From contig NC_068339.1 of assembly GCF_014633365.1 (NCBI RefSeq), positions 32,621,316-32,685,315 on the forward strand: DNA of 64,000 nt, in the 5' to 3' direction. The number at the start of each line of letters is the position of its first letter. The stretch's first letter is position 1. Positions 7,482-64,000 of the stretch are shown in pieces. The notes under the pieces were generated by a model. That model did no database searches and was not told where the DNA came from. It saw only the letters and a list, made by a program, of their open reading frames with translations. This stretch comes from Diospyros lotus (Eukaryota > Streptophyta > Magnoliopsida > Ericales > Ebenaceae). Position numbers and translations under genes: made by a program.

Positions 7482-7912
7482 AAAAAATCTCAAAAATAAT
7501 ATTGCCAAGAATAAAGCTGCTGCAAATAAGATCCACTTGAAGAAAGATAAACCGAATCCACATTCAAAAAATTTGGAGAAGAACTGTGGCATTTAAAAAA
7601 AAAAATAACTTCTCTCTAAACGTCTTATAAAAATACAGCAGAAAAAAGAAAAAGAAAAAGAAGAAGATGAGAACTTCAACTTTCACAATCCTGCATAATT
7701 TACCTCGTCTATGTTCCAAATCAGTTCAATCACCCCTAAGCTATAGAAATGTACAAAGCTTATGAAGTCGATTTAAGCCTAAAAATACAAAAGGATCAGC
7801 ATAAATTTCAGCAAGCAGAAATAATCTTTACCATAAAAAATCTTCATATCCAGAAAATTCACTCCCTCATGTCATTCTAGCACCTCGATCTGATCAGAAA
7901 TCAACAATGAAA

Positions 7913-8191
7913 CTAAAAAACAAAAGGCAGGATCAGGCTGATCACGGCGACGTCGTGGGCCAGGGTGAGGAATGTGCCGAACCAAATCCAAACGCCGGGT
8001 AGTGGGAAGAAGAAGAGACCGAAGTGATGAAGGCAACAGTGAGAGTGGTCTCTGATGAAGAAGAGAGGAAACAAAAGCTGAGATAGGGAGAGAGAGAGAG
8101 AGATAGAGAGGGAAGGTGGGGAGACAGAGGTGATGGGCGGGAACAAAAAATCATCACAATCATTCATTTCAGCCAATTTGATCTCAGCCAT
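7913..8191 (-). pseudogene. Exon-like fragment near the Helitron 5' end
   Basis: A minus-strand ORF of 92 residues starts Met-Ala-Glu-Ile and runs through a Ser/Leu stretch made by a GA microsatellite. It ends in a protein-like hydrophobic segment (LPGVWIWFGTFLTLAHDVAV). The last part could be a captured transmembrane exon. The family is not recognised, and the ORF as a whole is probably not a gene. Confidence 0.25.
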
Positions 8192-8247
8192 TCAAATGTC
8201 TATACATTTGAGACATTTCAAAAGCCATCTTGTTTTATTATATAGAT

Positions 8248-8414
8248 ATTTTTTATTTTTTTATTATTTTAGCGATAGAATATTGTTCTGTCTCTAATCC
8301 GTCGCTAATTTTACTAATTTTTTTTCCTTCACTCCATTATAATTCCGTCACTAAATAGCGACGAAAATGTCTATTGCTAAAAATCCATCGCTAAAACTCG
8401 AATTTCTTGTAATG
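8248..8414. repeat. CACTA right subterminal region and terminus
   Basis: TTTAGCGACGGA-like repeats in both orientations resume directly after the Helitron and end with the CACTA terminus at 8414, followed by ACA. Confidence 0.75.
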
Positions 8415-8480
8415 ACATGAATTCATTACAAGATATTTACAAATAAATGTCCACATTTTCTTTAATTTATATTTTATCTT
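8415..8480. repeat. Copia-type LTR remnant, middle piece
   Basis: The phrase ATGTCCACATTTTCTTTAA matches ATGTCCTCATTTTGTTTAA in the LTR at about 6979. The piece is bounded by the CACTA on the left and the Tat LTR on the right. Confidence 0.65.
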
Positions 8481-8481
8481 T

Positions 8482-9524
8482 TGTTATGCATGGGAAAACA
8501 CGCAAATAAGAAAATAATAGAAGTGTCATGTGGCGGCCCAAAGAAGCGCCAAATGGTGAGACCACCATGGGTGACTAGGGAGGTCACCTGGGGGGCTAGT
8601 ACCCCCGAGTGAGGGTCACTCGGGGGTGGTAGAAAGCTGCACCCCCGTGTGCCACTCAGTGGGAGGGGCACAAGGTGCGGCCCCCTCGCCCCGTGCAGTT
8701 AAGCAGCATGCGGTTGCTTGGTGAGGGGTCGCCCACCTAGGCTTCCCCGAGTGATCTTACTCAGGGAGGCTATGCCACTACGCGCGCAGGCGGCTACGCA
8801 TGGAGGCAGCCCACCAGGCCTTACCCCCGAGTGAGGGTCACCCGCACGCGCCGCTGCCTTCTTGCACTCGCATAGCAGAAGCCCCCACACGCCTGACCGC
8901 CCCTTGAGCCTGTGCGGCTTCCTCGCACCTGGCCCCACGCATGTATGGCCTCACACGTGCGATCTCTCCTTCTTGCTCGCGCCTGCATCCTTGCCTGCGC
9001 TCGCACACACCCCCAAGTGAGGGTCATTAGGGGTGCCACGCCCATATTTGAGTGCCCCATGTCCTCGTGCCAACACCTCCAAAAGAATCGGCCTAAAACT
9101 ACCCCTACGAGACTCAGTCAAAGCCTCTCCGAGATTTTTACCATGAAGATCGGGTCACATGACACATGGATGCCCCTCCTATCGCTATAAATAGGAGGTT
9201 TCTCTCACTCATTCGGTATGCAAACTCTAATACTCATACTTATTTTTTTCTTTTAAGCATTTCACTCCTACTAATCTGACTTAAGCATCGGAGGGATTGC
9301 ACGGGGATTCACACCTGCGTCCCTAACCGATTTTCTTTTCAGTAAGTCATCCATCATCTGAAGGAGTCATCCATCCCCCAAGTGAGGTCATCCATTGCTT
9401 AGCTCTGCAGCACGAGAGTCATCCCTCCACCAAAGTGAGGCCATCCATCGCTCAGATAAGCTATAAGCGGGTCATTCATTGGCGATTTCCCTTTTTACAA
9501 ATTTATTATTGTAACCGTGTAACA
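8482..9524 (+). repeat. Tat element 5' LTR
   Basis: It begins TGTTATGCATGGG and ends GTGTAACA. It shares long blocks with the 3' LTR, such as GGCCCAAAGAAG, GAGACCACCATGGGTGAC and CACCTCCAAAAGAATCG. The middle is GC-rich with repeated GAGTGAGGGTCAC words. A TATA-like CTATAAATAGGAGG lies at about 9184. The short ORFs across the GC-rich part are not genes. Confidence 0.85.
8601..8627. repeat. Perfect inverted repeat in the Tat LTR
   Basis: The 12-base arms ACCCCCGAGTGA and TCACTCGGGGGT flank a GGG loop. The same words recur as single arms through both LTRs, for example near 8823, 9009, 22920 and 23038. Confidence 0.9.
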
Positions 9525-15820: not shown

Positions 15821-16623
15821 GATTCACTCTGCTCTGATATCACAGTTGCAACCTACATTCCAGCCTATCCCATTTGCTCAATGGGTCTTGGATATTCTAG
15901 GCCCATTTCCACAAGCTACGGGTCAAAGGAAATTTCTTTTAGTTGCAACTGTTTACTTAACCAAGTGGATTGAGGCCGAAGCTCTAGACACTATCACTGC
16001 AAAGAAGGTAGAGGCCATGGTATGGAGAGACATCATATGCTGATTTGGAATCCCACGAATCCTTAACACCAATCACGGAAAGCAGTTTGACTGTGATTCC
16101 TTCCGAGGTTTCTGTAAAGGCCTGGATATTCAATTAAGGATCTCTTCAGTAGCGTATCCCCAAGCCAATGGGTAGGCCGAAGTCAGCAACAGAACGATCT
16201 TACATGGCTTGAAAACTCGGCTTGAAGGTGCAAATGGAGCGTTGTTGGATGAATTACCTACCGTCTTGTGGGCCTATCGAACAACTAGCAGAGTCTCAAT
16301 AGGTGAAACACCCTTTAACTTGGTGTATGGAACAAAAGCCTTAATTCTGGTAGAAATTTCGGGAAGATCACCCCGGTTGAGCGCCTTAGGGAAATGTGAC
16401 AACCCAGAAAACTCAGATTCCTTGAGAGTAAGTCTGGATCTCATTGAGGAACAAAGGGACAGGGTGGCTGTGCGAATCACTGCCTATCATAAAAGGATCA
16501 CCAACTACTACAACTCTCGGATAAAGAATAGGCCTCTGAATGAAGAAGATTTGGTCCTCAGGAAGTCATTCATCAGTAATGCACTCCGAGAAGAAGGGAA
16601 ATTTCGAGCTAATTGGGAAGGGT
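15821..16623 (+). pseudogene. pol: Tat integrase catalytic core and C-terminal part
   Basis: The core shows PFAQWVLDILGPFPQATG (first catalytic Asp), FLLVATVYLTKWIEAEAL, then a stop at 16043. The second acidic block is degraded (NTNHGKQFD), with Asn where the catalytic Asp is expected. YPQANG then a stop precedes AEVSNRTI (catalytic Glu region). It continues through LPTVLWAYRTTSR and GETPFNLVYGTKA to NWEGL. Integrase inserts the cDNA into the genome. This copy is dead. Confidence 0.85.
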
Positions 16624-18826
16624 TGTAATGCCCCACTTTCCATTACACAATGAAGCAATAAGATATTCATTATATGTTAATAATGACCTTGGGCATTATT
16701 GGAAATCCTTTATCAACGGAAGCAAGAATCGAACCTGAGTATGCCAAATAGCTAGGATTTCCTCAAGTTAAATAAAAGTCTGTCACGCACCCACATATTA
16801 GAAAGTTATAGCAGCTTCACAAATATATAAATTTAGCAGTACAGTCGCAGAACCTCACACAAACACCATACATCCTTAAGTATCTTAACTGCTATTTACA
16901 TTACAATATTGGGATTACACGGTACCCAGATAAATCCAACTCTAAATCAACCAAGCACCACCTCTGAATCCTTGCTCGTGCTGGAACCTAGAGTACCTGA
17001 CAAGCTTAACATACCTGGAACGTTGAATGTTTCAGGGGTATGAAACACCCGAGTTAGATTATTACATCTAAGTGAGTGGTACAGGGAAAGAAACTATGCA
17101 TGCAAGAGCAATATGCAATTATGCCAGGAAACAAGCAGAAATAAGTATAAACCTTCCAAGACCATATCAAAATAAAACCTCCCCGAGTCACCATCATCTT
17201 TTCCAACACTTGTGTCAAACCTCACAGCCTCACCTCTAGGCTAAGCCCCACCTCTAGGCATGTGGTCGTGGTCCAATTCCTCAGCCCCACCTCTAGGCAC
17301 GGCCCCACCTCTAGGCACGGGATTACGAGCCACCACTATGCCCATTGGCACTTGTGTGAAACATCTCAGCCCCACCTGTAGGCACGGGATCGTGGTCCAA
17401 TCCCTCAGCCTCACCTCTAGGCACGGGATTGCCTCCCTGATCCTAGTGATGTTCCACCAACAAGTCGCCAAGTCATCACGTACAAGTTCCCGATCCACCA
17501 ATAGTAACTATCACCAAATAACATGTTGAAGACAAAGCAGAAGAAATATGTACGAACTAAGGAATATCAAGTAGGCACGGCCTCACTTGTAGGCACCTTG
17601 CACAAATCAAGGAAAATATGATATGCAATCCACAAGCCACGAGCAAGAGTAGTCATGTTTAATCCCATCGACAAACCACAACAACAAACTCCGTGATGCA
17701 ATAAAAATAGGAAAGAAATGCTCGAAAATAGGGAAACATGAGATGTAAGCAACAACCATCCACAAGTGGAAACCAAGAGTGATCAATAAGAATCAAGGAG
17801 CATGCATAAGAACCTTTCACAAATGAAACCAAGAATGATCAAGAGGAAGCATGCACGAGAACCACTCACAAATGATCAAGGGTGGCCATGCGCCTCTTCC
17901 TTCCTTGTTACGGATTTTACAACCCAAAATTAAAACGGCTATATCTTGCTCATTTTAACTCCGATTCGCCTTCCGTTTGAACCTACGGACTCCCCTTTCA
18001 CTACTCTACAATTCTAAGAAAAGAAATTTAGCTTAACTTTTCAGTTTCCTTTATGTTTTTGCAGCTTTCCAACCAGGTCTCTCTTTCGTTTCTTCTTTGC
18101 TTTTTCTTTGGTTTTTCTTGCACTAGCTTTCTTTCCTTTCTCCTTAGCTTCATGTGGCCTTAACTCCTTCCCTTTATATAGCCTTTAAATTCCCAAATCC
18201 TCAAGATTTCACTTGGCCTCCAAGTTACTTATTTTCCACCCTAGTAATAATTACACTTTGAAATTTTTGCAATCTTCTCAAGCAAGCCTCCACTTCTTCC
18301 AATCCTAGGCCTCCAAATATACCTTTAAGATAAGCTCCATCATCTCCTTCCTTTGCAAGCTAATTCCTAGTCAATCCTAATCTTCCAAGTTTAGACTTTA
18401 GGATAAAAATCAATCATTGCAATCTTTGATTTTGATTTCATCTTCTCCTTCAAGCCTTTACTTCCTTCCAATCAAATCTCCCCTTCACGTGGCTTTCATG
18501 ATAAGAACACTCAAAGACCCTTATCTCTTCTCTTCCAAGCCACTCATAGCCTTCCAACTCATGCCACTTAAGAATTTTGGGGTAAGAATCAATCATTAAT
18601 TCAAAGACTTTAGGGAAAATTCTTAACCAATCCTATCTCTCCAACACATGGCTTCTAGGATAAGGAATCATTATTCCTTTTGTTGGGAACAAGCTATCCC
18701 TTTTACAAGTTGTGGTATTTGCATTTGGGTCCTAGAACCATTCATGTTCACACTTTAATTCTAAACTTTCATTTGAAACATTTTATTGCAACATCCAAGC
18801 TTTACATTAAATTTTGGGGTATTACA
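16624..18826 (-). mobile_element. Gypsy solo LTR, target duplication AGGGT
   Basis: The ends are TGTAATGCCCC at 16624 and GGGGTATTACA at 18826. The flanks AGGGT (16619-16623) and AGGGT (18827-18831) are a perfect 5 bp duplication. Minus orientation is inferred because the reverse strand starts TGTAATACCCCAAAATTT. The block ATGAAACACCCGAGTTAG here occurs reversed at 49192-49206 in the plus-oriented LTR at 47609-49647. It splits the last part of the Tat integrase. Confidence 0.9.
17225..17600. repeat. Tandem CCACCTCTAGGCACGG units
   Basis: At least eight copies of a core like CCCCACCTCTAGGCACGG occur with variable spacers inside the solo LTR. Confidence 0.85.
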
Positions 18827-22783: not shown

Positions 22784-22801
22784 AAAAGAGTAGGGAGCAA
22801 T
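22784..22801 (+). promoter_or_regulatory. Polypurine tract of the Tat element
   Basis: The purine-rich AAAAAGAGTAGGGAGCAA directly precedes the 3' LTR, where the plus-strand primer is expected. Confidence 0.6.
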
Positions 22802-23956
22802 TGTTACACATGGGAAAATGCGCAAATCTAAAAATAATAGAAACGCCATGTGGTGGCCCAAAGAAGTGCCACGTGGCGAGACCACCATGGGTGACCAAGG
22901 AGGTCACACGGGGGGCCGCTACCCCCGAGTGCCACTTAGTGGGTGCGCGCAAGGCGCTGCCTCCTCGTCCAGGGCAGCCAACTAGCACGCAGCTTCCTGG
23001 CGGGGGGCCGCGCGCCCAGGCTTCCCTAAGTAAGGGTCACTCGGGGGTAAGGTAGCCTCAAGTGACCCCACTCGCGGAGGTCGTGCCTTAGAGCGTGCGG
23101 CCTCCGGCGGGCGCGGGTTCTCGCGTGCACCAGGCCTTACACCCGGGTGGGGGTACTCGGGGGCAAGCCCCATCTCCCCCAGAATGAGGGTCACAGGGGT
23201 AAGGTACCCCTGAGTAACCCCACTCGGAGGGGGTTATGCCTTAGCGCGCGCAACCGCCCTCGCATGAGGCTGCCTCCACGCGTTCGCACGGGCGGATGCC
23301 CTTGGGTGCCTGATTTCCCCTTGAGCCCGCGCGGCCTTCTCGCACTTGGCCTCACTCGTGCACAACCCTATGTGCATGGCCTTGCACGCGCACGCTCTCT
23401 TTCTTGCCCGCACCCGCATCCTCATCCGCGCTCGCACACACCCTCGAGTGAGGGTCATCCAAGGTGCCATGCCCACATCTGAGCGCCCCCATATCCTCGT
23501 GCCAACACCTCCAAAAGAATCGACCTAAAACTACCCCCGTGAGACTCGGTCAAAGCCTCTCCGAGATTCTTGCCATGAAGATTGGGTCACACGACGCATG
23601 GATGCCCCTCCCATCGTTATAAATATGAGGTCTCTCTCCCTCATTTGGTATGCGAACTCTGATATTGATACTTATTTTTTTCTTTCAAGCATTTCACTCC
23701 TACGAATTTGACTTAAGCATCGGAAGGCTTGCGCGGGGATTCACACCCACGCCCTTAATCGATTTTCTTTCTAGCAGGTCACCCATTGTCTAAAGGAGTC
23801 ATCCATCCCCCAAGTGAGGTCATCCATCGCTCAGCTCTGCCACATGAGAGTCATCCCTCCCTCCAGGTGAGGTCATCCATCGCTCAGATAAGACATAAGC
23901 GAGACATCCATTGACAGTTTTCCCTTTTACAAATTTATTGTTGTAATTGTGTAACA
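22802..23956 (+). repeat. Tat element 3' LTR
   Basis: It starts TGTTACACATGGG and ends GTGTAACA. It aligns along its length with 8482-9524 but differs by many substitutions and indels (1155 against 1043 bases), so the insertion is old. Confidence 0.85.
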
Positions 23957-24320
23957 ATACCTTCTATTTACTTTAATACATAAATGTAAAGAATAAAGTA
24001 CCCCCTATTTGGATGTAATAAAAATATCTAAAAAATAAAAATGCATAACAAGAAGAAAGTAAATTTTTGATTTTAGAACAAATTCGGGATTTGAAGATTT
24101 TATCACTTTTAAAATACATACTTTCTATTTTTTGAAAAATTTATTTAAAATTATTTTAACAATAATAAATATTAACTATCAAAATACCGGAAAGGTATTT
24201 TCCAAAAAAAATTTTTTTTTTTATATGTTCCTTATAATGCGCTAATATTCAACTTAGAACAAATAGCATTTCTTGATTCATTTTAATACATAAAATACTA
24301 TAATATTGAAAATATGTTAT
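23957..24320. repeat. Copia-type LTR remnant, right piece
   Basis: The stretch beginning ACCTTCTATTTACTTTAAT follows the order of 7011-7400 in the LTR at 5836-7481 (AAAAATATCTAAAAAAT, ACTTTCTATTT). It is the continuation of 8415-8480 across the Tat insertion. Confidence 0.7.
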
Positions 24321-41665: not shown

Positions 41666-42376
41666 TCAAAACTCACACTTGCTAATCTTAGCATATAATT
41701 GCACCTCCCTAAACTTCCTCAATACTAGAGTGAGATGCTCCTCATGCTCCTCTGCACTAGGTGAGTATACAAAAATATCATCAATGAACACAATAATAAA
41801 ACAATCTAAGAACTCACGCAGGACTCGATTCATCATATCCATGAACACAGTTGGGGCATTAGTCAGGCCAAATGGAAACACCACGAACTCGTAGTGACCA
41901 TAGTGAGTTCGGAAAGCTATCTTTTAAATATCTTCTTCTCTAACTCGCACTTGATGATAGCCTGAACTCAAGTCTATTTTGGAAAACACTTTGGCTCCTC
42001 GCAACTAATATAGCAAGTCATCCATTCCGAGTAAGGGGTACTTATTTTTCACCATCACTTGATTCAATTGACGGTAATCAATGCATAGCCTCAACGATCC
42101 ATCTTTCTTCCTCAAGAACAAAACAAGTGAGCCCAATGGTCGGATAAAACCCTTCTCTATCAACTCTTCCAACTGGATCTTCAACTCTTTGAGCTCATTG
42201 GGTGCTATATGGTATGGAGCCTTAGATGCAGGTTGGGTACCCAGTAACAGTTCGATAGAAAACTCTACGTCTCGTCGAGAAGGCAACCCTGGTAGATCAT
42301 CATGAAAGACATCAGGAAAATCTCGAACTACGATTACCTCGGTCAAATGCTTCTTGCTCACCCCATCAATAGTCAC
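41666..42376 (-). pseudogene. pol: Tekay element B reverse transcriptase
   Basis: Two open frames cover RT. The first (42376-42005) has [20 protein letters not shown], an Ile-Glu-Leu-Leu-containing motif, [22 protein letters not shown] and [10 protein letters not shown]. The second (41884-41666) has [20 protein letters not shown] and FIDD, the catalytic aspartates, then [11 protein letters not shown]. They are separated by about 120 bases with stops. Confidence 0.85.
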
Positions 42377-52370: not shown

Positions 52371-53165
52371 TGACTGCTACGCTACCCTGCACATTTATTT
52401 ATCAAAACAACAACCAAATTTATCAAACATTAATCCTTTTGTTAAAGCAGGTATAGGGCGATTATACTCGCCAGTGTGCGAGTGTGCGTGTAGTACAATT
52501 TTAAATTTATAATTCGGTGAGTCCGAGTCGGTTCACAGGGAGATTATTTTGGATGAAAACAGAAATCACTGAATATTTGATTTTAAGAGGTGATTAAGAT
52601 AATCTAAAGGAAATGATTAAAACTAAATTAACAATGAGTTTAAGTAGCTTGGGTCAAGACAATTTCAGTGTCAAAACCAATTAATTCCCAACTTAATAGA
52701 AAAGATCAATAATATTCATCTGAATTAAGTTTTGCAGATCTATGAGTAATTTTAGTTCAAGATAATGATAATTCTTGTTTAAGCAATCTCCATACATGGC
52801 ATGGAAATTCTAAGTCAAGCAATTATCATAAATTGAATTATATCCCACAGATAGAATTTATAGGTACAGATTAATCATTTGGGCTTGGGTATGAAAACAT
52901 TTCCAGGTCTAGCAATCTCCATACGTGGCATGGAAACTCTAAGTTAGGCTTATGCTCCAATCCAAACTCAAAGATACACTATACGCACACTGCTCAAATT
53001 AAATCAGATTAATATTACACAATTGAAGCGCAGCTTTCTTTGGGAATCATTGGCGTTGGACACTGTCCTTGCCTTAACCCAAGATCGGATTTAGCTACTC
53101 ATCTTCATTTTTAAAATAAATTGGCAGGAATTTAAATGACGGGAATTAAAAGACAGTATTTAAAA

Positions 53166-53389
53166 GACTATTTTTTAACCGACCATATAGGCGGTTTATA
53201 ATGAAAAGACAAGAATTGAAAGACTATTTTTTAACCGACCATATAGGCGGTTTATAATGAAAAGACAAGAATTGAAAGACTATTTTTTAACCGACCATAT
53301 AGGCGGTTTATAATGAAAAGACAAGAATTGAAAGACTATTTTCAACCGACCATATAGGCCGTATATAATAAAAAGATAATATGAATAAC
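53166..53389. repeat. 56 bp tandem repeat in the Athila LTR, four copies
   Basis: Units starting GACTATTTTTTAACCGACC begin at 53166, 53222, 53278 and 53334, exactly 56 bases apart. The first three are nearly identical and the fourth is diverged and shortened. They lie downstream of the TATA box, so they would be transcribed. Confidence 0.95.
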
Positions 53390-53552
53390 ATAATACAACT
53401 ATATGGAAACAAAGGTTGAAGATTTAAGAGAGAAATTCTAAGAACGAAATCATATTGAAACTAAAGTGAAAATTTTGAGAGAGAAATTTCAAGAACATAA
53501 CTATACTTTCATTATAGGAAAATTGAATGGTTACAAATGCACCCTAAGTGCT

Positions 53553-53562
53553 CTATTTATAG
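53553..53562 (-). promoter_or_regulatory. LTR TATA box
   Basis: On the minus strand the sequence is CTATAAATAGAG, an excellent plant TATA box about 540 bases into the LTR. Element transcription would start some 30 bases further, near 53520. Confidence 0.8.
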
Positions 53563-53673
53563 GGTAAAAGATGCAATAGAGACCACTCAATTATATAATT
53601 TAATAATACAAAATATCTAAAGAAAAATAAAATAACTAATTTAAAAATACAAAGATAAATAAAATATCTAACA

Positions 53674-53757
53674 CATGATGTAAGCGATGATGTCATTCCA
53701 ACTCATGATGTAAGCAATGATGTCACTCCAACCCATGATGTAAGCGATGATGTCATC
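53674..53757. repeat. 30 bp tandem repeat with TGATGTCA in the LTR U3 region
   Basis: Three units starting CATGATGTAAGCGATGATGTCA begin at 53674, 53704 and 53734. Each contains TGATGTCA (TGACATCA on the element strand), a CRE-like half site of the kind bound by plant bZIP factors. They lie about 110-200 bases upstream of the TATA box, an enhancer-like position. Confidence 0.85.
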
Positions 53758-53765
53758 AATTTGTG

Positions 53766-53912
53766 GGACTTGGGCTTTTCATATTTTTGGGCTTGGGCCT
53801 TCCTTGTGTTGGGCTTGGGCCTTCCTTGTGTTGGGCTTGGGCTTGGGCCTTCCTTGTGTTGGGCTTGGGCCTGGGCTTTCCATGTGTTGGGCTTGGGCCT
53901 GGGCTTTCCATA
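53766..53912. promoter_or_regulatory. Cluster of site II-like TGGGCY motifs in the LTR U3
   Basis: TGGGCT or TGGGCC occurs about twelve times in 150 bases (GTTGGGCTTGGGCCTTCC and variants). On the element strand this is RGCCCA, the site II element bound by TCP-family factors in promoters of growth-related genes. It lies 210-350 bases upstream of the TATA box. The open frames across it are repeat artefacts. Confidence 0.7.
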
Positions 53913-54105
53913 TTTATATTATTATATATATATTATATTATTATATATATTATATTTAATTTTTTTATATTTTATATATTTTATATTAATATTTTTAAAC
54001 ATGCACAAAATTTCAAAATGCATAATAATATTCAATTTAAACCATTTTAAGATCAAAATAAGGGTGAAATTATAATAAAATTTTTACAAAATTGATCACT
54101 AATCA

Positions 54106-54118
54106 CACCCCCCAACTT
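54106..54118 (-). promoter_or_regulatory. Polypurine tract of the Athila element
   Basis: On the minus strand AAGTTGGGGGGTG directly precedes the LTR start TGATTAG, the expected plus-strand primer position. Confidence 0.85.
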
Positions 54119-55596
54119 AAACATTGCTAGTCCCATAGCAATTAAACTTTACACTGGCCAGATTTATTCACAATAATCACATGAATATAAAAATTTCAAA
54201 TTCTAAACGGAAATACATAGAACAGAACAAGCCATCTGTCATACAGTCGAATATTCTAAATTAGATTTCGGTCAAAGGTTATACAATCTTAGGAATGGCA
54301 ATTAGGATGATCATTATTCTACTTTATTCCCTCGAAGTTTCGACTTCAAACCTTACTATGAATTTTCCCTCAAATAAAAAAAATGATTCCTTGGGTGTAC
54401 ACACAAGGGAGCCACCGTTTTAAGAGTAAATGTAAAACAAGTTCAAACTCGGTGTCGTCCCAAATACAAAGAACGTATTTTCATGAAAGAATAGGGAATT
54501 TAACATAGCTTCATGACTGGAATAATGCCATAGATAAATAACTTCTGAATTTAAACAGAATTCTTTACTCTGAACTCGAATCCTAAGATCACATGATTTA
54601 TAGCATCAAGAGGGACCAGACTGGGTTGTAATGGGGCTATGAGGTTAATACGGGTTGTCAAAGAAAAGGGTAAAGTGTGCAAAGGGTGTGTTGGGATTTT
54701 TTTTTTTTTTTTTTGACACTAATATCAAATTAAACATATATTTTTTTTCTTCAGCATTTATTTTGAAACACTCGTGCTGAAAAGCTAAGAGAACTTCCAT
54801 TTTTTCTTTTTTTTCTTTTTTTTTTCTTTTCTTTCTCTTTTTTTTTTCTTTTTAATATGAAAGTACCGAGATAGACTGATTCCTAAAAACACACCAGGTT
54901 GGATAAACTTCATATGGTTCTAGGTTAGACGAGGGTAATGAAAGGAATTATGCTAAGAACAGCTCAAATGGGCTAGCAAGGGGGTTAATGTGAAGAAAGA
55001 AAAAGGTTAATAGGTCCAAATTGAAAGAAATTGATCCCCTATCATGCTTCTATAAAACGATGTTACTCAGTCAACTAATTCAGAGTTTGAAATCAGCCAA
55101 ATTCATCCGCCATCATACTAGACATTCAAAGCAAATTGATGTTTTGAAGCTATTGAAAATATGAGATCAACAATAAAACGCATTTAGAATAAGTGTTATT
55201 TCACTCAGAATTAATGATCATTAGGCTCAAACACTCACTCGGGTAATAGTCTCCACTTCTGTTAAGGGATCATGCAGTGTGCTAATTACCATTGCCTTTG
55301 ACTTTATGACCGATAAACCAATTTCTAATTATTGAACACCCGATGCATGCAAATCACTTATTCTAATCCCACATATCTACGGTTTCAAATAAGAAATTAA
55401 TGCATTCATGATTCATACTGCAAATTCAACTGGCTGTCAGTTTATAACTCCAAAGCTTTAGGGATAGCATTATTTAAAGCACGCACAATTTTTTGATTTT
55501 TAATAGGAGTAGATAAAAGTAAATAATTCACATAAAATTACAAGCATGCAGTTACAAATTCACAGTTAAACATGGACTAGATAGTTCATAAATATA

Positions 55597-55620
55597 CCTT
55601 ACTCCCTCCAACTTGAATTG
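55597..55620 (-). repeat. Polypurine-like duplicate, degenerate
   Basis: CCTTACTCCCTCCAACTTGA here repeats CCTTACCCCCCAACTTGA at 57885-57902 with small changes. Both resemble the true polypurine tract at 54106-54118 (CCCCCCAACTT). Confidence 0.7.
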
Positions 55621-55795
55621 CAGTAATAAAATAGGGTTTGTTAGGAATACCTGTAACTCCACGAGTCTGTAAGTTTACTGTGAACTGTTAAATCTTCAAC
55701 AAACAAGTGAGAATACCCTACATATATTTTTTATATTTTTTTTCTTTTTCACATCAAAATAAGAAAAATTCATGCAAGTCATATAATAAAGAGAT

Positions 55796-55975
55796 GCGTC
55801 TCAAGAGTACAAAAAGTACTCCTTACTCAGCCATCTTATCATAGACTTGCCTAACAACATTCCATAATTTTTTAAAACAAAACATAAAAAAAATTCATGC
55901 AAGTCAAAATAAACAGATGCGTCTCAAGAGTACAGAAAAGTACTCCTTACTTAGCCATGTTATCATAGACTTGCT
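55796..55975. repeat. Tandem duplication of a 120-base unit containing a GAGTAC hairpin
   Basis: GATGCGTCTCAAGAGTAC begins at about 55797 and again at about 55917. Each copy is followed by AAAAAGTACTCCTTACT, forming a GAGTAC/GTACTC stem-loop. The outer parts (GATGCGTCTCAAGAGT and ACTCCTTACTCAGCC) also occur at 56974-57029, inside the 146-residue ORF, separated by 25 more bases. The copies seem to derive from the end of that ORF. Confidence 0.75.
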
Positions 55976-55979
55976 CTCC

Positions 55980-56639
55980 TTAGAGGGATAAATCTAAATT
56001 AATCGGACCCCTTTTGCGCTTGCTTCCAATTACCTTAGACCAGTCTATCTGAGGCTCGTAAGGATCATGCTGTGGAACATAAGTGTGTAATTTATCTAGT
56101 AGCTCCTCAATGGTGGATGCGGAAATGAGAATATTTCTTGCAGAAAGAGAAATGAACTTTTGTTCCACAGCCTGATCAAGAAAAGAGAGCAACCCATCAA
56201 AAAAATGGTTAATATTTAAAAGTCCAATGGGTTTGGTATGGAGATTGCTCTTGGCCCAGGAGATTATACAAAAGATTTCTTCAAGTGTACCAAAACCTCC
56301 TGGCAAAGCAATGAAGGCGTCTGACTGATAAATCTTACAAGCCATGCGCTCAGACATAGAAGTCGTTCTTATAAGTTGACCTCGTGTGTACCCGGAAATC
56401 TGTGGATCAGCCAAAGGGATTGGCATAATACCTACCACATATGATTGCCCAAGATGTGCAGCCTGTGAAACACATCCATTCAATCCACGACTTCCCCCTC
56501 CATAGACCAAATTAATTTTTCTCTCTCCCAATTTTATGCCAAGTTCGCTTGCTGCAAGTGTGTAACAAATATCGCTCCCAGGTTGAGAGCCACATAGTAC
56601 ACATATGGTATTGATTCGACGAACTGGCTGGCCTTCCAT
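55980..56639 (-). CDS. LOG-type cytokinin riboside 5'-monophosphate phosphoribohydrolase carried by the retrotransposon
   Basis: This intact, intronless 219-residue ORF matches the full length of plant LONELY GUY (LOG) proteins, which are about 210-230 residues. LOG enzymes release active cytokinin bases from their riboside 5'-monophosphates in the cytosol or nucleus. The protein has the nucleotide-binding start ICVLCGSQPG (residues 12-21), YGGGSRGLNG (46-55), a catalytic-type Arg at 98, and SDAFIALPGGFGTLEE (106-121) with the signature PGGxGTxEE. The usual Glu after the Arg (RKAE) is Cys here (RMAC), and GLMG is GLNG. The C-terminus has KRKR (207-210) and ends LDLSL, an LxLxL pattern. The ATG at 56639 has a good context and follows an AG acceptor-like site. 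Plant LOG genes normally have several introns, so an intronless copy points to capture from mRNA. Confidence 0.88.
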   Translation of the reverse strand: MEGQPVRRINTICVLCGSQPGSDICYTLAASELGIKLGERKINLVYGGGSRGLNGCVSQAAHLGQSYVVGIMPIPLADPQISGYTRGQLIRTTSMSERMACKIYQSDAFIALPGGFGTLEEIFCIISWAKSNLHTKPIGLLNINHFFDGLLSFLDQAVEQKFISLSARNILISASTIEELLDKLHTYVPQHDPYEPQIDWSKVIGSKRKRGPINLDLSL

Positions 56640-56929
56640 TTATGTTAGTTCTTTATGTATGCCCTGAAAGTAGAACTGGTTAAAGAGGTTTGGCAATCAA
56701 AAGTAACTACATAGAAATTCAACAATAAATAAACATAAACAAAAATCATGCGTATATACAAGTAGTTGTGATTGTGGCTCACATCTTCCTCTGGTTTTAC
56801 GTCTAGAAACGGCTTAAACACCTTCTATGAAGCGGGGATAGGCTTCCCATCCAATTTTCTTATAGATTGGCAAACAGGGTCAATTATAGTCAGATTCCCA
56901 AGACTATAGCGTTGGTGGTCACTTCTAAA
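56640..56929 (-). other. Spacer between the cysteine-rich ORF and the LOG-like ORF, with a splice-acceptor-like site
   Basis: On the element strand the spacer ends with TTCTACTTTCAG/GGC, an acceptor-like site at 56665-56664, 25 bases before the LOG-like ATG. It would pair with a CAG/GTACTC donor-like site at 57445/57444, upstream of the 146-residue ORF, giving a GT-AG intron of 781 bases. No other feature is seen. Confidence 0.45.
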
Positions 56930-57370
56930 CTAGGTCCATAAAGCAAGAATTTCTCGTTGCACTATTCCACACGGATGCGTCTCAAGAGTCAATCGGATAT
57001 CATCCAAAGACTCCTTACTCAGCCCATCCTTTATGAAACAAATTTTATCATCTCGATTTATGGAAGTAAACCCCACAGATTTACATCGTGTGTTACAAGT
57101 CCATCGAGCACATTTGTGACAACCATTTAATCTTTTCGCTCTTCTTTTTTTCGAAAAACTACTCTTTCCCAATCCTGGAAAATGCTTAAAACTAGGTGAG
57201 GTTTCGCCAAGAAATCGAACTTTTGCTTCAATTAACCAGCGAATATCCTCAGGGATATTTTTATACATCAACATCCGAAGTCTTTCACACCTAGTGGCAT
57301 AAATCTTTTTTAAATCATTTTGTGGGAGAGATGGATAGTACTTACGAATTTTCAAGAGGTGAAGATTCAT
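56930..57370 (-). CDS. Basic cysteine-rich protein, resembling carlavirus-type nucleic-acid-binding proteins
   Basis: This intact 146-residue ORF lies upstream of the LOG-like ORF on the same strand. It has a basic, probably helical N-terminal half and then a GKSSFSKKRRAKRLNGCHKC segment (67-86). Cysteines follow as C-X2-C-X4-C-X3-C. Next come a Gly/Ser/Asn stretch and ICFIKDGLS, then an acidic tail. An Arg-rich block just before a cysteine cluster and a closing FI-x-x-G motif is the layout of the small nucleic-acid-binding proteins of carlaviruses and related plant RNA viruses. Those bind RNA and affect silencing. The cysteine spacing differs from theirs, and I recognise this by pattern only. 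It could also be an unrelated zinc-knuckle or Athila accessory protein. Confidence 0.6.
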   Translation of the reverse strand: MNLHLLKIRKYYPSLPQNDLKKIYATRCERLRMLMYKNIPEDIRWLIEAKVRFLGETSPSFKHFPGLGKSSFSKKRRAKRLNGCHKCARWTCNTRCKSVGFTSINRDDKICFIKDGLSKESLDDIRLTLETHPCGIVQREILALWT

Positions 57371-57479
57371 TTTTTTTTAAAACAGAACTATAGTAAAAGA
57401 AAAGTAAAACAAAATAATGAACCTTACAAAAGGAACGAGAGTACCTGATCGGAGAATAACACAAATGAGAGAAGACTGA
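57371..57479 (-). other. Leader of the cysteine-rich ORF with a splice-donor-like site
   Basis: CTCCGATCAG/GTACTCTCG on the element strand gives a donor-like site at 57445/57444. An A-rich stretch runs up to the ATG at 57370. Confidence 0.4.
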
Positions 57480-57700
57480 GCTCAAAGAAGTGTGGCTTGC
57501 CTCATGCAGATACGGGGTCTCTTATAGGGCTGTGGAAGTCACCATTCCAACAACTACACTTGGCTCGAGACGTGCCACAAGTGCAGGGTCACGTCTGGCG
57601 TCTCCTTTTTCAACGTTCGGTGTTTCTTTTCAACGTTCCGCGTCTCCTTTTCCTTTATAGGGAAGTGTGTCATTTCCTTTATAGGGCAGTGTGATTGCTC
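57480..57700 (-). promoter_or_regulatory. Promoter-like segment upstream of the post-pol ORFs
   Basis: The element strand has GCCCTATAAGAGACC (TATA-like, at 57530-57516) about 150 bases before the 146-residue ORF. Upstream are two CCCTATAAAGGAAA units (near 57660 and 57685), two AACGTTGAAAA units, and ACGTG/GCACGT-type words. This block is richer in GC than the flanking AT-rich DNA and has no ORF of its own on that strand. Its layout looks like a plant or pararetrovirus-like core promoter with a leader (CTCAGTCTTCTCTC). It may drive the cargo ORFs separately from the LTR. Confidence 0.5.
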
Positions 57701-57884
57701 TGCCCAAAAAATAAATAAATAGTTGTCATCGGCGTTGAGTTTGTCTCCTTCTTATATTTTTATATATATATATATTAAGAAAATAAAGTTTTTATTTTAT
57801 TATATATTTTTTTAATAATAATTTTTTTTTGAAGGGGCCTCATAAAATCAAAATCACATATACCACACAAAACAACAATTCCCA

Positions 57885-57906
57885 CCTTACCCCCCAACTT
57901 GAATTG
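57885..57906 (-). promoter_or_regulatory. Internal polypurine-like tract after pol
   Basis: On the element strand the sequence is TCAAGTTGGGGGGTAAGG, almost the same as the true polypurine tract next to the 3' LTR. It lies 200 bases after the gag-pol stop. It may be the ancestral pre-LTR tract left behind when the cargo segment was acquired, or a second plus-strand primer. Confidence 0.6.
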
Positions 57907-58108
57907 CGTATTGTCCTCAATCGACAATAATAGAAAAGATAGAGGATAGACATACCTGGCGGTCATCGATGCATGAATATGTGATGTTTTCTTCACCCTG
58001 AATAGCTACAGGGGTTGTTATTAATGTCCTGGACCTAAAGACATCCATTTAACCTAAATGGAAAGGTGGTCTTTTAACGTCAGATTCCCAGACGATACGA
58101 AACCTCTT

Positions 58109-61100
58109 TTACTCATTTAATGGTGGATCCCCTAAATCCACACTTCCTTCGTCTTCCTCATAACTATACTGATAAGGTTTCAACCTATGACCATTGACCT
58201 TAAGGCATTGCCCTGACTCTTGATTTTCAATTTCGAAAGCCCCATATTCCGAGATGGACTTGATTATGAAGGGGCCAACCCATCTTGATTTTAATTTTCC
58301 TGGGAATAAATGCAATCGAGAATCATACAAAAGTACCTGTTGCCCGACATGAAAGCTTTTCCTAATGATGCGTCGGTCATGCAACTCTTTCATGCGAAGC
58401 TTAGCCAGTCGTGCATTTTCAAATGCATCTTTTCTTATTTCATCAAGCTCATTTAATTGGAGCTTCCTAGAGAAGCCTGCTTCGGTCAAACTTTTGTTGA
58501 TTCTTTGAATTGCCCAATATGCTCTATGTTCAATTTCCACAGGAAGATGACAAGGTTTACCATACACTAATCTATATGGAGACATTCCCAAGATCGTTTT
58601 ATATGCAGTCCTATATGCCCAAAGAGCGTTTACTAATCTCAAAGACCAATCTTTGCGATTGGTGGCAACGGTCTTTTCTAAGATATGTTTAATCTCCCTA
58701 TTAGCTAGCTCAGCCTGACCACTGGTTTGGGGATGGTACGGCGTGGAAATCTTGTGCAACACACCATATTTTTTCATGAGACCTGCCACGACCTTGTTAC
58801 AAAAATGGGAACCCCCATCACTAATGATCGCTTGTGGCATCCCAAACCGACTAAAAATGTTTTCCCTTAAAAATTTCACCACAATCCTATGGTCATTGCT
58901 CCTTGTCGGGATTGCCTCAACCCATTTGGACACATAGTCAACAGCAAGTAAGATATACTCATGCCCAAACGAACTAACAAATGGACCCATAAAGTCTATA
59001 CCCCAGCAGTCAAAGACTTCTAACACCTGGATTGGTTGTAATGGCATCATGTTTCTCTTGGATAGACTGCCTAGTTTTTGACATCGATCACAACTTGAAC
59101 AAAATCTGTACACATCCTTAAATAATGTTGGCCAATAAAATCCACTTTGTAGAATTTTTGCAACTGTTTTCTTGATGGAAAAATGGCCTCCACAAGCAAG
59201 AGTGTGACAAAAATTTATGACACTTTGTTGTTCATGATTAGGGATGCATCTACGAATGATTTGGTCAGGACAATATTTGAACAGATACGGGTCATCCCAG
59301 AAAAATGTCACCACCTTCCTAAAAAATTTTTCTTTATCTAGTTTGGACCAATAATCTGGGATCTGTCTAGTGACTAGATAATTTGCTATATCAGCGTACC
59401 ATGGAAAGGTGAGTGGTTCAGTTTGAGTGTTTGTTTGAAACAATTGTTCGTCAGGAAAGGAATCTTGGATTGGGTTTTCAAATTGATTAAGATTTTGGCA
59501 TGGTAGACGAGACAAGTGATCGGCTACCACATTTTCTACCCCTTTTTTGTCTATGATCTCGATATGGAATTCTTGTAACAATAAGATCCATCTAAGGAGA
59601 CGGGGTTTTGCATCTTGCTTTGTTAATAAATATTTAAGAGCAGCATGGTCAGTAAAAACAATCACCAGTGACCCCACGAGGTAAGACCGGAATTTGTCTA
59701 GGGCGTAGACAACTGCTAGCAACTCTTTCTCTGTCGTGGTGTAGTTCTTTTGAGCCTCATTAAGAGTTTTGCTAGCGTAATATATCACATAAGGTTTCTT
59801 GTCTTTCCTCTGACCTAACACGGCTCCTATCGCGTAATCACTGGCGTCACACATCAGCTCAAATGGTAGGGACCAATCAGGGGACTGAATGATAGGTGCA
59901 GAAACAAGTGAGTTTTTTAATTTCTCAAAAGCAGCTTGACACTTACTGGTCCACTCAAAGGGCATGTCTAGGACTAAAAGGCGACATAAAGGTTTGGCTA
60001 TGGTACTGAATGAAGCAATAAAGCGCCTATAAAAACCAGCATGGCCAAGAAAAGACCTAACATCCCTCACATTCTTTGGGGCGGGTAATTTTTGAATTAA
60101 TTCAACCTTAAACTGATCGACCTCAATACCCTTAGAAGAAACAATGTGTCCTAAGACACTTCCTTGAGTGACCATGAAGTGGCACTTCTCCCAATTTAGC
60201 ACTAAATGCGTTTCCTTGCACCTCTCTAAGACTCTTTCTAAATTTTTCAGACAACTATTAAAGCTATCTCCATACACTGAGAAGTCATCCATGAAAACTT
60301 CCACCACATTCTCTACCAATTCACTAAAAATGCTCATCACGCATCTTTGAAATGTTGCAGGGGCATTGCATAGACCGAATGGCATTCGTCTGTAAGCAAA
60401 TGTCCCAAATGGACAAGTGAATGTGGTCTTCTCCTGATCTTCTAACGCAATTTCTATTTGATTATACCCAGAGTACCCATCCAAGAAGCAGTAGAAGGCA
60501 TGTCCCGCTATTCTCTCTAAGACTTGATCTAGAAATGGAAGCGGAAAATGATCCTTCCTTGTCACAGAGTTGAGCTTCCTATAATCAATGCACATACGCC
60601 ATCCAGTCTGGATGCGCGTAGGGATGAGCTCATTGTTCTCATTTGCTATCACAGTGACTCCTGACTTCTTAGGTACAACTTGAGTCGGACTGACCCATTT
60701 GGAATCTGAGATGGGGTAGATGATACCTGCATCTAACAGTTTAAGAACCTCTCCCCGGACAACTTCTTTCATGTTCGGGTTCAAACGCCTTTGCATTTGC
60801 CTTACAGGTTTCGCATTTTCCTCTAAGAATATCCTATGGGTGCAGGTGAGGGGGCTAATGCCATGTAGGTCAGAGATAGACCATCCTATAGCTTTTTTGT
60901 GCATTCTGAGGAGATCTAGTAATGCTTCTTCTTGATGCAATTCTAGGCTTGATGAAATCACTACTGGCAAAGACTCCCTTTCACCTAAGAATGCGTACTT
61001 AAGGTGATTCGGCAATGGTTTTCTCTCAAGTTGGGGTGGACGAACCAAAGATGGTGTGGTTTCATTCCCAGGTAATTTCAATGGCTCTAGGCCAAGCATC

Positions 61101-63628
61101 AGTTGTGTGATCACCCTGGCTGACTCAACGTCAGGCTCTATCCCTTTCGAAGTTTGCTTCTCTAATTTATAAATAACCTGCTCATAAAGAGCCTCCTCAA
61201 AGTATTCTTCACTTAAGGTCTGGATTAAATCTACTTCCTCCAATTCCATTTCGTCATTTGGTTGCTTAGTTACCTTGAAAACATTCATCTCCACCGTCAT
61301 ATTCCCAAATGATAGTTTCATGATCCCATTCCTACAATTGATGATTGCATTCGAAGTAGCAAGGAATGGTCTCCCTAGGATAACGGGAATAGGTGACTGA
61401 GGACCCTGGTGGGGCTGGGTATCTAAGACAATAAAGTCCACTGGGAAATAGAATTTGTCCACTTGGATTAGGACATCCTCCACAATCCCACGAGGAACTT
61501 TTACTGATCGGTCAGCCAATTGAAGAGTGACCCTAGTGGGCTTGAGTTCTCCTAACCCTAGTTGCTGATAGACACTGAAAGGCAACAGATTGACACTAGC
61601 CCCTAGGTCAAGAAGTGCTTGGTCGACTTTTTGGCTTGCAATTATGCAAGCAATGGTAGGACATCCTGGGTCCTTGTACTTTGGAGGGGTCTTAAATTGA
61701 AGGATAGCACTTACTTGTTCTGTTAAGAATGCTTTTTCCCGCACATTGATTTTTCTTTTGACTGTACAGAGATCCTTCAAAAACTTAGCATACGAAGGTG
61801 TTTGCTTAATTGCATCCAATAAAGGAATGTTTATCCTTACTTGTTTGAATACTTCGTATATGTCTGCATTTGTTTTATCTCTTTTTGATTGGGTTAATTT
61901 TTGAGGAAAGGGTGGTCGAGGTTCAAATTTGGATCTCTCTTCAACACTCTTCCCTTTTTCCTTTTGCTTTCTCTCTTGCTCTCTTTCTTCCTTCTCAGCT
62001 TTCTTTTTACCCTCTTTACTTCCTTCATTCACTTCCTCATCATTCATTTCATCATGCCCTTGGTCTTTTTTACTAATGGTAGGCCACATTGTCCTAGGGT
62101 CCTTAGGTTTCTCAATTACTTTCCCACTCCTAAGGACAGTGACAGACTGGACTTGTTCATGATTCTCACTAGATGACCCTTCGGCTCTATGGGCTTGACC
62201 TACGGGGTTCGGACTTGGTTGTGAGGGAAACTTTCCTGGTTCTCTAACACTCAAGGTCTGAGTCAACTTAGTTAGCTGACTTCTCATGTCTTCTAGAGCC
62301 CTATTTGTTTGTTCTTGAAACTTGGCTACTTGGGTATTAGTTCCTATTTGACCTTGCATGAATTGTTGTAGGGTGTCCTCTAGAGATCTCTTATGAGGAG
62401 GTTGATATGCACCAGATGACCCTTGGTTTGGTTGGTAAGACTGTGGCTGTGAGGGGAATGGTGCATGGGGTTGGGCGGCAGAATCATTTCTCCATGAAAA
62501 ATTAGGGTGATTACGGGAGTTGGGGTGGTATGTATTGGAATTAGGATTGTACCCTAAGTAGTTCCCACTCTGATTCTGATTCTGATAAGGCCTACCCTCT
62601 GTCTGACGTGGTTGTACTCCAGATGCTTGGCCATAGAGGACCTCTTTAAAAGCAGGAATGGTAGGACAATCTTCTGTCATATGGCCATTCGTCTCACAAA
62701 CCACGCAAAGGACTTCCACCTCATGGACGGCCTTGGTTTTTTTTAACTCTAATTCTTCCATCTTCTTTGTTAATGCTGTTAACCGGGCATTGATGTTATC
62801 ACTTTCACTTATTTGAAATTTTCCTCGAGGTTGTGGACTGACATGCTCTCTTGAGTCTTCCAAAGACAATGGACTTACCTCCCAATTCCTAGTATTCTCA
62901 GCTAAAGTGTCGAAAAAGTGAAAAGCTTCTTCAGGTGTCTTCTCATAAAATTCACCATTGCACATGGTCGACACTAACATCTTAAGGTTAGGGGTTAAGG
63001 CATCATGAAAAAAACTAACCACCCGCCACTGCTCAAAAGCATGATGTGGGCAAGTAAGAAGTAGATCTTTGAAACGATCCCAAGCTTGAGCAAATGACTC
63101 GGTGGGTTTACAAGCAAAGTTCATCATTTGTCTTTGAAGGGATGCTGTCCTATTGGCCGGAAAATATTTCTTTAAAAATTTAGTTTGCATTTCTCTCCAT
63201 GTTCCTATTGATCTCGACTCTAATGTGTTTAACCACATTTTAGCTTTGTCTTTTAATGAAAATGGGAACAATTTTAGCCTCACAGTATCCTCATTGACAT
63301 TCTGATCGACACAAGTGCCGCAGACCTCTTCAAATTCTCTCATGTGAGTGTACGGATTTTCCGAATCCATACCATGAAAAGTAGGTAACATCTGAATGGT
63401 ACCCGGTTTAAAGTTGAATCTATGATGGTTAACTGGAAGTACAATGCAAGAGGGAGTAGTTTGCCTCGGAGGGTGCAAATAGTCCCTGAGAGGTCGAAGC
63501 ATTTCAGCTCCCAAGGGATCTTGATCAACATGATCACCCCCTTGAGCAGACATGTTATCATTTTGTTGAGACATTAGAGATTGTGAATGGACTTCTTGTT
63601 CTAGCACTCTACCTGATCTAAGTCTCAT
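58109..63628 (-). CDS. gag-pol: Athila gag-pol polyprotein, intact
   Basis: This is one open frame of 1839 residues. Gag comes first, with the retrotransposon gag domain at about 85-250 (FPFSLKDKAKMWLNTL, SFAQAWDRFKDLL) and a CCHC knuckle C308-C311-H316-C321. A low-complexity Gln/Pro and Lys/Glu linker follows, then aspartic protease with D674 in LLDLGAS. RT (about 930-1170) has MCIDYRKLN and FMDD (D1114, D1115). RNase H has D1261, E1300, D1327 and D1370. Integrase has H1475, H1482, C1513 and C1516, and the triad D1545, D1604 and E1640 (spacing 35), ending near LKPYQY. There are no stops or frameshifts and every catalytic residue is present, so the element could be active or recently so. No chromodomain is present, as expected for Athila. 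The ATG follows the primer site by about 155 bases. Confidence 0.95.
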   Translation of the reverse strand: MRLRSGRVLEQEVHSQSLMSQQNDNMSAQGGDHVDQDPLGAEMLRPLRDYLHPPRQTTPSCIVLPVNHHRFNFKPGTIQMLPTFHGMDSENPYTHMREFEEVCGTCVDQNVNEDTVRLKLFPFSLKDKAKMWLNTLESRSIGTWREMQTKFLKKYFPANRTASLQRQMMNFACKPTESFAQAWDRFKDLLLTCPHHAFEQWRVVSFFHDALTPNLKMLVSTMCNGEFYEKTPEEAFHFFDTLAENTRNWEVSPLSLEDSREHVSPQPRGKFQISESDNINARLTALTKKMEELELKKTKAVHEVEVLCVVCETNGHMTEDCPTIPAFKEVLYGQASGVQPRQTEGRPYQNQNQSGNYLGYNPNSNTYHPNSRNHPNFSWRNDSAAQPHAPFPSQPQSYQPNQGSSGAYQPPHKRSLEDTLQQFMQGQIGTNTQVAKFQEQTNRALEDMRSQLTKLTQTLSVREPGKFPSQPSPNPVGQAHRAEGSSSENHEQVQSVTVLRSGKVIEKPKDPRTMWPTISKKDQGHDEMNDEEVNEGSKEGKKKAEKEEREQERKQKEKGKSVEERSKFEPRPPFPQKLTQSKRDKTNADIYEVFKQVRINIPLLDAIKQTPSYAKFLKDLCTVKRKINVREKAFLTEQVSAILQFKTPPKYKDPGCPTIACIIASQKVDQALLDLGASVNLLPFSVYQQLGLGELKPTRVTLQLADRSVKVPRGIVEDVLIQVDKFYFPVDFIVLDTQPHQGPQSPIPVILGRPFLATSNAIINCRNGIMKLSFGNMTVEMNVFKVTKQPNDEMELEEVDLIQTLSEEYFEEALYEQVIYKLEKQTSKGIEPDVESARVITQLMLGLEPLKLPGNETTPSLVRPPQLERKPLPNHLKYAFLGERESLPVVISSSLELHQEEALLDLLRMHKKAIGWSISDLHGISPLTCTHRIFLEENAKPVRQMQRRLNPNMKEVVRGEVLKLLDAGIIYPISDSKWVSPTQVVPKKSGVTVIANENNELIPTRIQTGWRMCIDYRKLNSVTRKDHFPLPFLDQVLERIAGHAFYCFLDGYSGYNQIEIALEDQEKTTFTCPFGTFAYRRMPFGLCNAPATFQRCVMSIFSELVENVVEVFMDDFSVYGDSFNSCLKNLERVLERCKETHLVLNWEKCHFMVTQGSVLGHIVSSKGIEVDQFKVELIQKLPAPKNVRDVRSFLGHAGFYRRFIASFSTIAKPLCRLLVLDMPFEWTSKCQAAFEKLKNSLVSAPIIQSPDWSLPFELMCDASDYAIGAVLGQRKDKKPYVIYYASKTLNEAQKNYTTTEKELLAVVYALDKFRSYLVGSLVIVFTDHAALKYLLTKQDAKPRLLRWILLLQEFHIEIIDKKGVENVVADHLSRLPCQNLNQFENPIQDSFPDEQLFQTNTQTEPLTFPWYADIANYLVTRQIPDYWSKLDKEKFFRKVVTFFWDDPYLFKYCPDQIIRRCIPNHEQQSVINFCHTLACGGHFSIKKTVAKILQSGFYWPTLFKDVYRFCSSCDRCQKLGSLSKRNMMPLQPIQVLEVFDCWGIDFMGPFVSSFGHEYILLAVDYVSKWVEAIPTRSNDHRIVVKFLRENIFSRFGMPQAIISDGGSHFCNKVVAGLMKKYGVLHKISTPYHPQTSGQAELANREIKHILEKTVATNRKDWSLRLVNALWAYRTAYKTILGMSPYRLVYGKPCHLPVEIEHRAYWAIQRINKSLTEAGFSRKLQLNELDEIRKDAFENARLAKLRMKELHDRRIIRKSFHVGQQVLLYDSRLHLFPGKLKSRWVGPFIIKSISEYGAFEIENQESGQCLKVNGHRLKPYQYSYEEDEGSVDLGDPPLNE

Positions 63629-63783
63629 ACACTGTTTAGTAACTAAAAGTTACCTAACAAGTTTTTTTTTTTTTTAAGTATATAGATTTTTTTTCTTTAT
63701 CTTTAAAATATTTATTATTTTTTTTGTTTTTTTTTAAAAGTAGTAAAACAACAAAAATAACACACTAAGTTACCAATTAATCT
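63629..63783 (-). other. Athila leader between primer site and gag-pol
   Basis: This short A/T-rich leader has long T runs on the plus strand (63662-63676, 63719-63736). No ORF or structure stands out. Confidence 0.6.
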
Positions 63784-63800
63784 CCCCGGCAACGGCGCCA
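63784..63800 (-). promoter_or_regulatory. Primer-binding site, tRNA-Asp
   Basis: On the element strand the sequence is TGGCGCCGTTGCCGGGG, a perfect complement to the 3' end of plant tRNA-Asp(GUC). It starts 5 bases after the LTR. It is the classic Athila primer site. Confidence 0.93.
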
Positions 63801-63805
63801 AAAAC

Positions 63806-64000
63806 TGACTGCTACGCTACCCTGCACATTTATTTATCAAAACAACAACCAAATTTATCAAACATTAATCCTTTTGTTAAAGCAGGTATAGGGCGATTAT
63901 ACTCGCCAGTGTGCGAGTGTGCGTGTAGTACAATTTTAAATTTATAATTCGGTGAGTCCGAGTCGGTTCACAGGGAGATTATTTTGGATGAAAACAGAAA
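63806..64000 (-). repeat. 5' LTR of the Athila element, partial
   Basis: The 195 bases visible here are identical to 52371-52565. The rest of the LTR and its target duplication lie beyond the window. Confidence 0.95.

Follow-up and report, generated by a model that had tools for sequence, protein, structure and literature searches.

A LOG-family gene with an altered pocket and an LxLxL tail, beside a NABP-like gene, in an Athila-type retrotransposon of Diospyros lotus

In this study we describe a retrotransposon bounded by long terminal repeats (LTRs) on the minus strand of a 64,000-nucleotide stretch of Diospyros lotus DNA (contig NC_068339.1, positions 32,621,316 to 32,685,315; the whole stretch is called the window), which carries, behind its gag-pol gene, an uninterrupted open reading frame (ORF) of the LOG family. 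Our analysis points, at about an even chance in our judgement, to a young Athila-type element from a lineage carrying a remodelled, probably nuclear nucleotide hydrolase of the LOG fold beside a gene for a carlavirus-type nucleic-acid-binding protein (NABP). Plain cytokinin activation by this LOG appears less likely.

Results

Read along the minus strand, the element consists of a 5' LTR end, a primer-binding site, gag-pol, a NABP-like gene, the LOG gene, a polypurine tract and a 3' LTR, located as follows.

63806..64000, minus strand: 3'-most 195 bp of the 5' LTR, which is cut by the window end
63783..63800, minus strand: primer-binding site TGGCGCCGTTGCCGGGGA, five bases in from the end of the 5' LTR
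58109..63628, minus strand: gag-pol ORF of 1839 amino acids, with gag, aspartic protease, reverse transcriptase, RNase H and integrase
56930..57370, minus strand: NABP-like ORF (Viral_NABP / Carla_C4, by Pfam) of 146 amino acids, shortened by a stop codon
55980..56639, minus strand: uninterrupted LOG-family ORF of 219 amino acids, by Pfam domain and structure match
54108..54113, minus strand: core GGGGGG of the polypurine tract, within AAGTTGGGGGGTGTGATT, by sequence
52371..54107, minus strand: 3' LTR, its outer 195 bp identical to 63806-64000; the inner border is inferred from the polypurine tract, so that its length of about 1.7 kb is approximate

Two matches show that the LOG frame is not a chance one: it hits Pfam Lysine_decarbox at 1.4e-32, and its match to the Arabidopsis LOG of solved structure, At2g37210, reaches 1.1e-54. 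An earlier note on this DNA had described a full-length, intronless LOG gene on the element strand between gag-pol and the polypurine tract and 3' LTR, and the 219-codon frame bears this out. The protein has a predicted LOG fold and retains the PGGxGTxxE motif and the AMP-binding loop, together with catalytic Arg98 and Glu121, which correspond to Arg99 and Glu122 of CgLOG; the residue roles in CgLOG, including those of this catalytic pair, are those reported in PMC4979012. In the pocket, however, Ser96, Met99 and Cys124 replace His, Lys and Glu. Where the prenyl-pocket set of CgLOG reads Met96, His97, Lys100, Glu125 and Trp129, the window protein has Met, Ser, Met, Cys and Trp, keeping two of the five. 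Judged by these residues, it is a type I member of the LOG family, and we do not file it as a canonical cytokinin-activating LOG.

The same pattern is found among its relatives. We compared 119 homologues, the top-listed entries of a protein search to which all homologue counts out of 119 refer, with a cellular set drawn from the best 120 entries retrieved with a single profile made from LOG3, LOG8 and P0119; 119 of these entries were compared. Two entries occurred in both lists and were placed by judgement, P0119 as cellular and P0008 as a homologue; the latter, from Xanthoceras, keeps the pocket Lys and Glu and lacks the LxLxL motif described below. The catalytic Arg is kept in 115 homologues and the catalytic Glu in 116, and because this pair is conserved, nucleotide hydrolysis or binding probably matters to the protein. 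Lys100 and Glu125 are kept in only 7 and 6 of the 119 homologues, whereas all 119 cellular LOGs have both; six Xanthoceras entries retain the two together.

A second derived feature, overlooked in the earlier note, is the C-terminal tail. The window LOG ends in KRKRGPINLDLSL, in which the LxLxL form is LDLSL. An LxLxL motif lies within the last 12 residues of 93 of the 119 homologues and of none of the 119 cellular LOGs, and a basic K[KR]x[KR] cluster resembling a nuclear localization signal lies within the last 30 residues in 96 homologues versus a single cellular protein. When only the 107 homologues long enough to judge are considered, LxLxL is present in 90 and a looser hydrophobic version in 97, and the 10 with neither form include four Xanthoceras entries and one Primulina entry. 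As a sequence motif, the window tail has the LxLxL pattern of EAR-motif (TOPLESS-binding) proteins. According to a review (PMC12886408), LxLxL is among the motifs bound by the TOPLESS domain, and pathogen effectors use EAR motifs. The tail predicts nuclear entry and corepressor contact.

A FastTree tree of the core domain, tail excluded, was built from 234 of the 239 sequences; P0007, P0008, P0092, P0098 and P0114 (more than 15 gaps) were left out. The tree splits 115 sequences, namely the window protein and 114 homologues, from the 119 cellular ones with a support of 1.0. Loss of Glu125 needs one change on this tree, loss of Lys100 two and loss of His97 twelve; with short entries set aside, the count is seven for the strict LxLxL and three for the looser tail. 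A previous count of nine changes for the looser tail was dropped because cut-off entries had been scored as lacking it. The four Xanthoceras sequences in the tree, all of which keep Lys100 and Glu125, lie nearest to two cellular reference sequences (0.79-0.87 versus a median of 1.44 over the 115). From these change counts and the Xanthoceras placement, the remodelling of the pocket seems ancient and common to the lineage, with a tail that is a little more labile.

Close LOG relatives occur in several plant families and form multi-member clusters such as P0062, with 327 sequences, so that, as far as proteins show, the ORF is not confined to this copy, a possibility that the earlier note had raised against itself. 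In D. lotus, one element-type protein is 85% identical to the window LOG, and a canonical LOG1, 47% identical to it, occurs as well. Two Xanthoceras gene models, P0006 and P0007, fuse LOG to an Athila-like pol stretch that is 47-50% identical to the window element, and two pairs of LOG and NABP matches sit on contigs of equal odd size (8723 bp for P0025/P0130 and 2128 bp for P0021/P0207), which are hints only. Similar pairs at 873 and 905 bp were rejected as chance, the contigs being too short for both genes. We also observed that the element-type LOGs P0001, P0040, P0046 and P0089 bear the host-gene name LOGL10 in Diospyros and Populus annotation, a naming that could distort cytokinin gene counts.

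The element itself has a gag-pol gene in a single open frame, free of internal stops, with its domains in the gypsy order of gag, protease, reverse transcriptase, RNase H and integrase; a domain scan of gag-pol as four pieces gave no match to a chromodomain. The primer-binding site is of a type that we take to be tRNA-Asp. We class the element as Athila-type Ty3/gypsy by features typical of that lineage, namely its primer-binding site, its gag-pol and the accessory region 3' of pol. Between the LTR ends at 52371-52565 and 63806-64000 there is not one difference over 195 bp, which by our own arithmetic sets a rough 95% ceiling of 1.5% on LTR divergence. The insertion therefore looks young, as the earlier note had proposed in calling it recent, on a small sample of 195 bp; the remainder of the 5' LTR and the target-site duplication fall outside the window. 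Within the 3' LTR a 56-bp unit is repeated about three times in tandem at 53144-53342 (TTTTTAACCGACCATATAGGCGGTTTATAATG...).

The NABP-like frame, which lies between pol and LOG, passes the Pfam cut-offs of both Viral_NABP (PF05515; 30.8 bits against 23) and Carla_C4 (PF01623; 22.1 bits against 20.9), with matches that span only the middle of the protein (residues 38-119 and 62-96); a basic region and a Cys motif are present. In an alignment of the family, at E-values up to 0.001, PF05515 matches 27 of the 29 members and PF01623 matches 25. The family comprises 243 proteins at E-values up to 1 among 255 candidates, the best being 90% identical. The window protein ends at 146 amino acids versus 181 in its three closest homologues, and homology runs on in frame past the stop; among the best 120 of the 243 matches, 55 are 181-183 amino acids long and 11 end close to the position of the window stop. 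Either the window gene is damaged in its 3' part, or that last part may be dispensable. Unless it is dispensable, the shortened NABP leaves one gene of the element incomplete; the earlier note had called the element intact and overlooked this gene. The peptide that follows the stop has a counterpart in P0195 with no intervening stop (KAFKPLLDVKPEEDVSHNHNY). The predicted NABP structure, at a confidence score (pLDDT) of 64.9, was too poor for use in a structure search.

A scan of genome contigs returned one related locus, L001 (DAIEQH010000041.1), of 3330 bp. It is filed under a Candidatus Nomurabacteria metagenome-assembled genome, looks like a plant Athila-type fragment and is evidently contamination. 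L001 contains an Athila-like integrase end and a 186-codon NABP frame, followed by the internal polypurine-like motif that the window also has. The accessory region of the window has the following further features.

58068..58097, minus strand: short relic of a NABP 3' end directly after pol, 28 of 31 columns identical to L001 2264-2294
57890..57895, minus strand: internal polypurine-tract-like motif AAGTTGGGGGGTAAGG between pol and NABP, 34 of 38 columns identical to L001 2577-2614
56757..56832, minus strand: conserved block at and beyond the end of the NABP homology, identical in 69 of 76 columns to L001 2341-2415
55745..55974, minus strand: stretch of about 107 bp duplicated in tandem immediately downstream of LOG, its copies 55974-55868 and 55850-55745 being 88% identical

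The conserved block is 91% identical to L001, against 75% across the whole 628-column match, and its predicted RNA structure is no better than that of shuffled sequences (z -0.31). No LOG is found in the 983 bp after NABP in L001, which indicates that NABP is not tied to a LOG right behind it. The polypurine-like motif stands before NABP in the window and after it in L001; this order, together with the NABP relic after pol, indicates that the accessory region was rearranged between the two. By eye, the core of the tandem duplication resembles part of the NABP coding sequence, so that NABP-like fragments flank the NABP-LOG stretch as a relic after pol and a tandem remnant after LOG. Given these fragments on both sides, the region may have been built by template switching. 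Between the window and L001, NABP has a ratio of nonsynonymous to synonymous divergence (dN/dS) of 0.20 at a dS of 1.26, a value that suggests purifying selection, though with the caution that a dS this high calls for; in the integrase, synonymous sites are saturated. In viral contigs, no locus was confirmed with NABP or LOG single-sequence queries or with the NABP alignment.

Elsewhere in the window there are older repeated segments, 78-88% identical, and, by eye, decayed integrase-like and reverse-transcriptase-like frames of other retroelements (7011-9354 and 22801-24233; 16209-16628; 42005-42376).

Discussion

For most accessory genes of plant LTR retrotransposons, no function is known. 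If a remodelled LOG is what this lineage carries, one or a few captures of a cellular LOG mRNA would have taken place in eudicots, after which most of the resulting lineage would have become a nuclear protein, one still able to bind and hydrolyse an AMP-like nucleotide but without the usual selection of the cytokinin side chain. The tail of this protein might dock on TOPLESS-type corepressors, steering or titrating them, and the protein could be made from a subgenomic or spliced RNA. As to the NABP neighbour, its viral relatives are described in PMC12172455 as silencing suppressors, one of which is also a transcription factor that induces hyperplasia; together with such a protein, the element might alter the transcription, hormone or silencing state of the host in cells where it replicates. 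We speculate, tentatively, that a widespread eudicot retroelement lineage has turned LOG into a nuclear effector with an altered pocket, a TOPLESS-docking tail and an effector-like action on host transcription or silencing, paired in some elements with a virus-type protein resembling a silencing suppressor. If true, this would tie retroelements to the effectors of pathogens; several of the latter act through the same corepressor hub. The protein of this lineage is well folded and of known ancestry, its derived residues are sharply delimited and the partner of its tail is predictable, features that make the effects of retroelements on their hosts directly testable.

The earlier note had instead proposed a simple cytokinin activator, and a working enzyme that releases cytokinin locally in element-active cells, for example dividing or meristem cells, to the benefit of the element, would fit the conserved fold, PGGxGTxxE motif and catalytic Arg and Glu; the six Xanthoceras entries that keep Lys100 and Glu125 further suggest that the ancestral capture may have been canonical. 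We nevertheless consider this doubtful, as the window copy and most of the 119 homologues have other residues in place of Lys100 (112 homologues) and Glu125 (113 homologues), both of which are reported to be identical in CgLOG, AtLOG3, OsLOG and CpLOG (PMC4979012), and the tail would be left unexplained. It is unlikely, in our view, that the LOG protein is a catalytically weak or dead nucleotide-binding scaffold under selection for binding and for its tail, since the catalytic pair is kept more often than would be expected if catalysis were dispensable. LTR elements transduce host genes, and the LOG gene could be a passenger that replicates with no role, or a late retrogene insertion in a single copy, a reading made quite unlikely by full-length relatives with common derived residues in several plant families, by the multi-member clusters and by the kept catalytic residues; we rejected the late insertion because related LOGs in several plants share the derived residues.

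Several points weigh against the remodelled nuclear hydrolase that we prefer. Of 76 cellular-invariant columns, 16 are kept in fewer than 50% of the homologues, the changed pocket positions among them, and the chance that three of the five prenyl-pocket residues fall in those 16 columns is 6%, so that targeting of the pocket is not proven; the cellular set may also miss other cellular LOG types. Alanine at the AMP-contact residues of CgLOG, which judging from the text of PMC4979012 include Lys100, nearly abolished activity, and by this result the derived proteins might have little enzyme activity or none. The LxLxL motif is short, is lacking in the Xanthoceras and Primulina copies and needs at least seven changes on the tree, and 15 of the 119 cellular entries are longer than 240 amino acids, with ends that may be gene-model artefacts. 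Binding, localization and activity of the element LOG are predictions, and residence in an element is established for the window copy and circumstantial for the other homologues.

LOG genes in plant LTR elements are already known, whereas the derived pocket, the tail and the NABP neighbour look new among the literature matches listed. Those matches, from a search that mostly lay outside subscription papers, included no report of an EAR tail in a LOG or of NABP-like genes in plant retroelements. With cellular plant LOGs (AtLOG3, At2g37210; AtLOG8, At5g11950), the element-type proteins share the fold, PGGxGTxxE and the catalytic Arg and Glu; they differ in that Lys100 and Glu125, and often His97, are replaced and a basic LxLxL tail takes the place of the cellular C-terminus. 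The cysteine-rich NABPs of carlaviruses and mandariviruses likewise share a basic stretch, a Cys motif and both Pfam families with the window NABP, which, unlike them, is encoded in an LTR retroelement, matches Pfam in its middle only and is shortened in this copy. An abstract of Steinbauerova et al. 2011 (Genetica 139:1543) reportedly describes Athila-like elements with an extra LOGL4-like ORF 3' of pol; compared by abstract only, these have the lineage, the position and the LOG similarity in common with our element, and the abstract is said to be silent on a neighbouring NABP, a changed pocket or an LxLxL tail. The earlier note knew of no such arrangement, yet a YgdH/LOG domain has been published in the LTR-element consensuses of two Citrus species and, with a filter off, of Populus trichocarpa, in a paper that cites and agrees with a 2011 survey (PMC9289625). 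As in the window, the LOG-type domain lies there inside plant LTR retrotransposons; in section 12 of that paper it is given as a domain match only, unaccompanied by an analysis of residues, tail or neighbours. From PMC9289625 also comes a parallel case, that of Phalaenopsis gypsy elements with an ORF for an AlkB m6A demethylase, in which a Ty3/gypsy lineage has likewise fixed a host-type enzyme, although enzyme and element are different and the enzyme activity has been shown in vitro.
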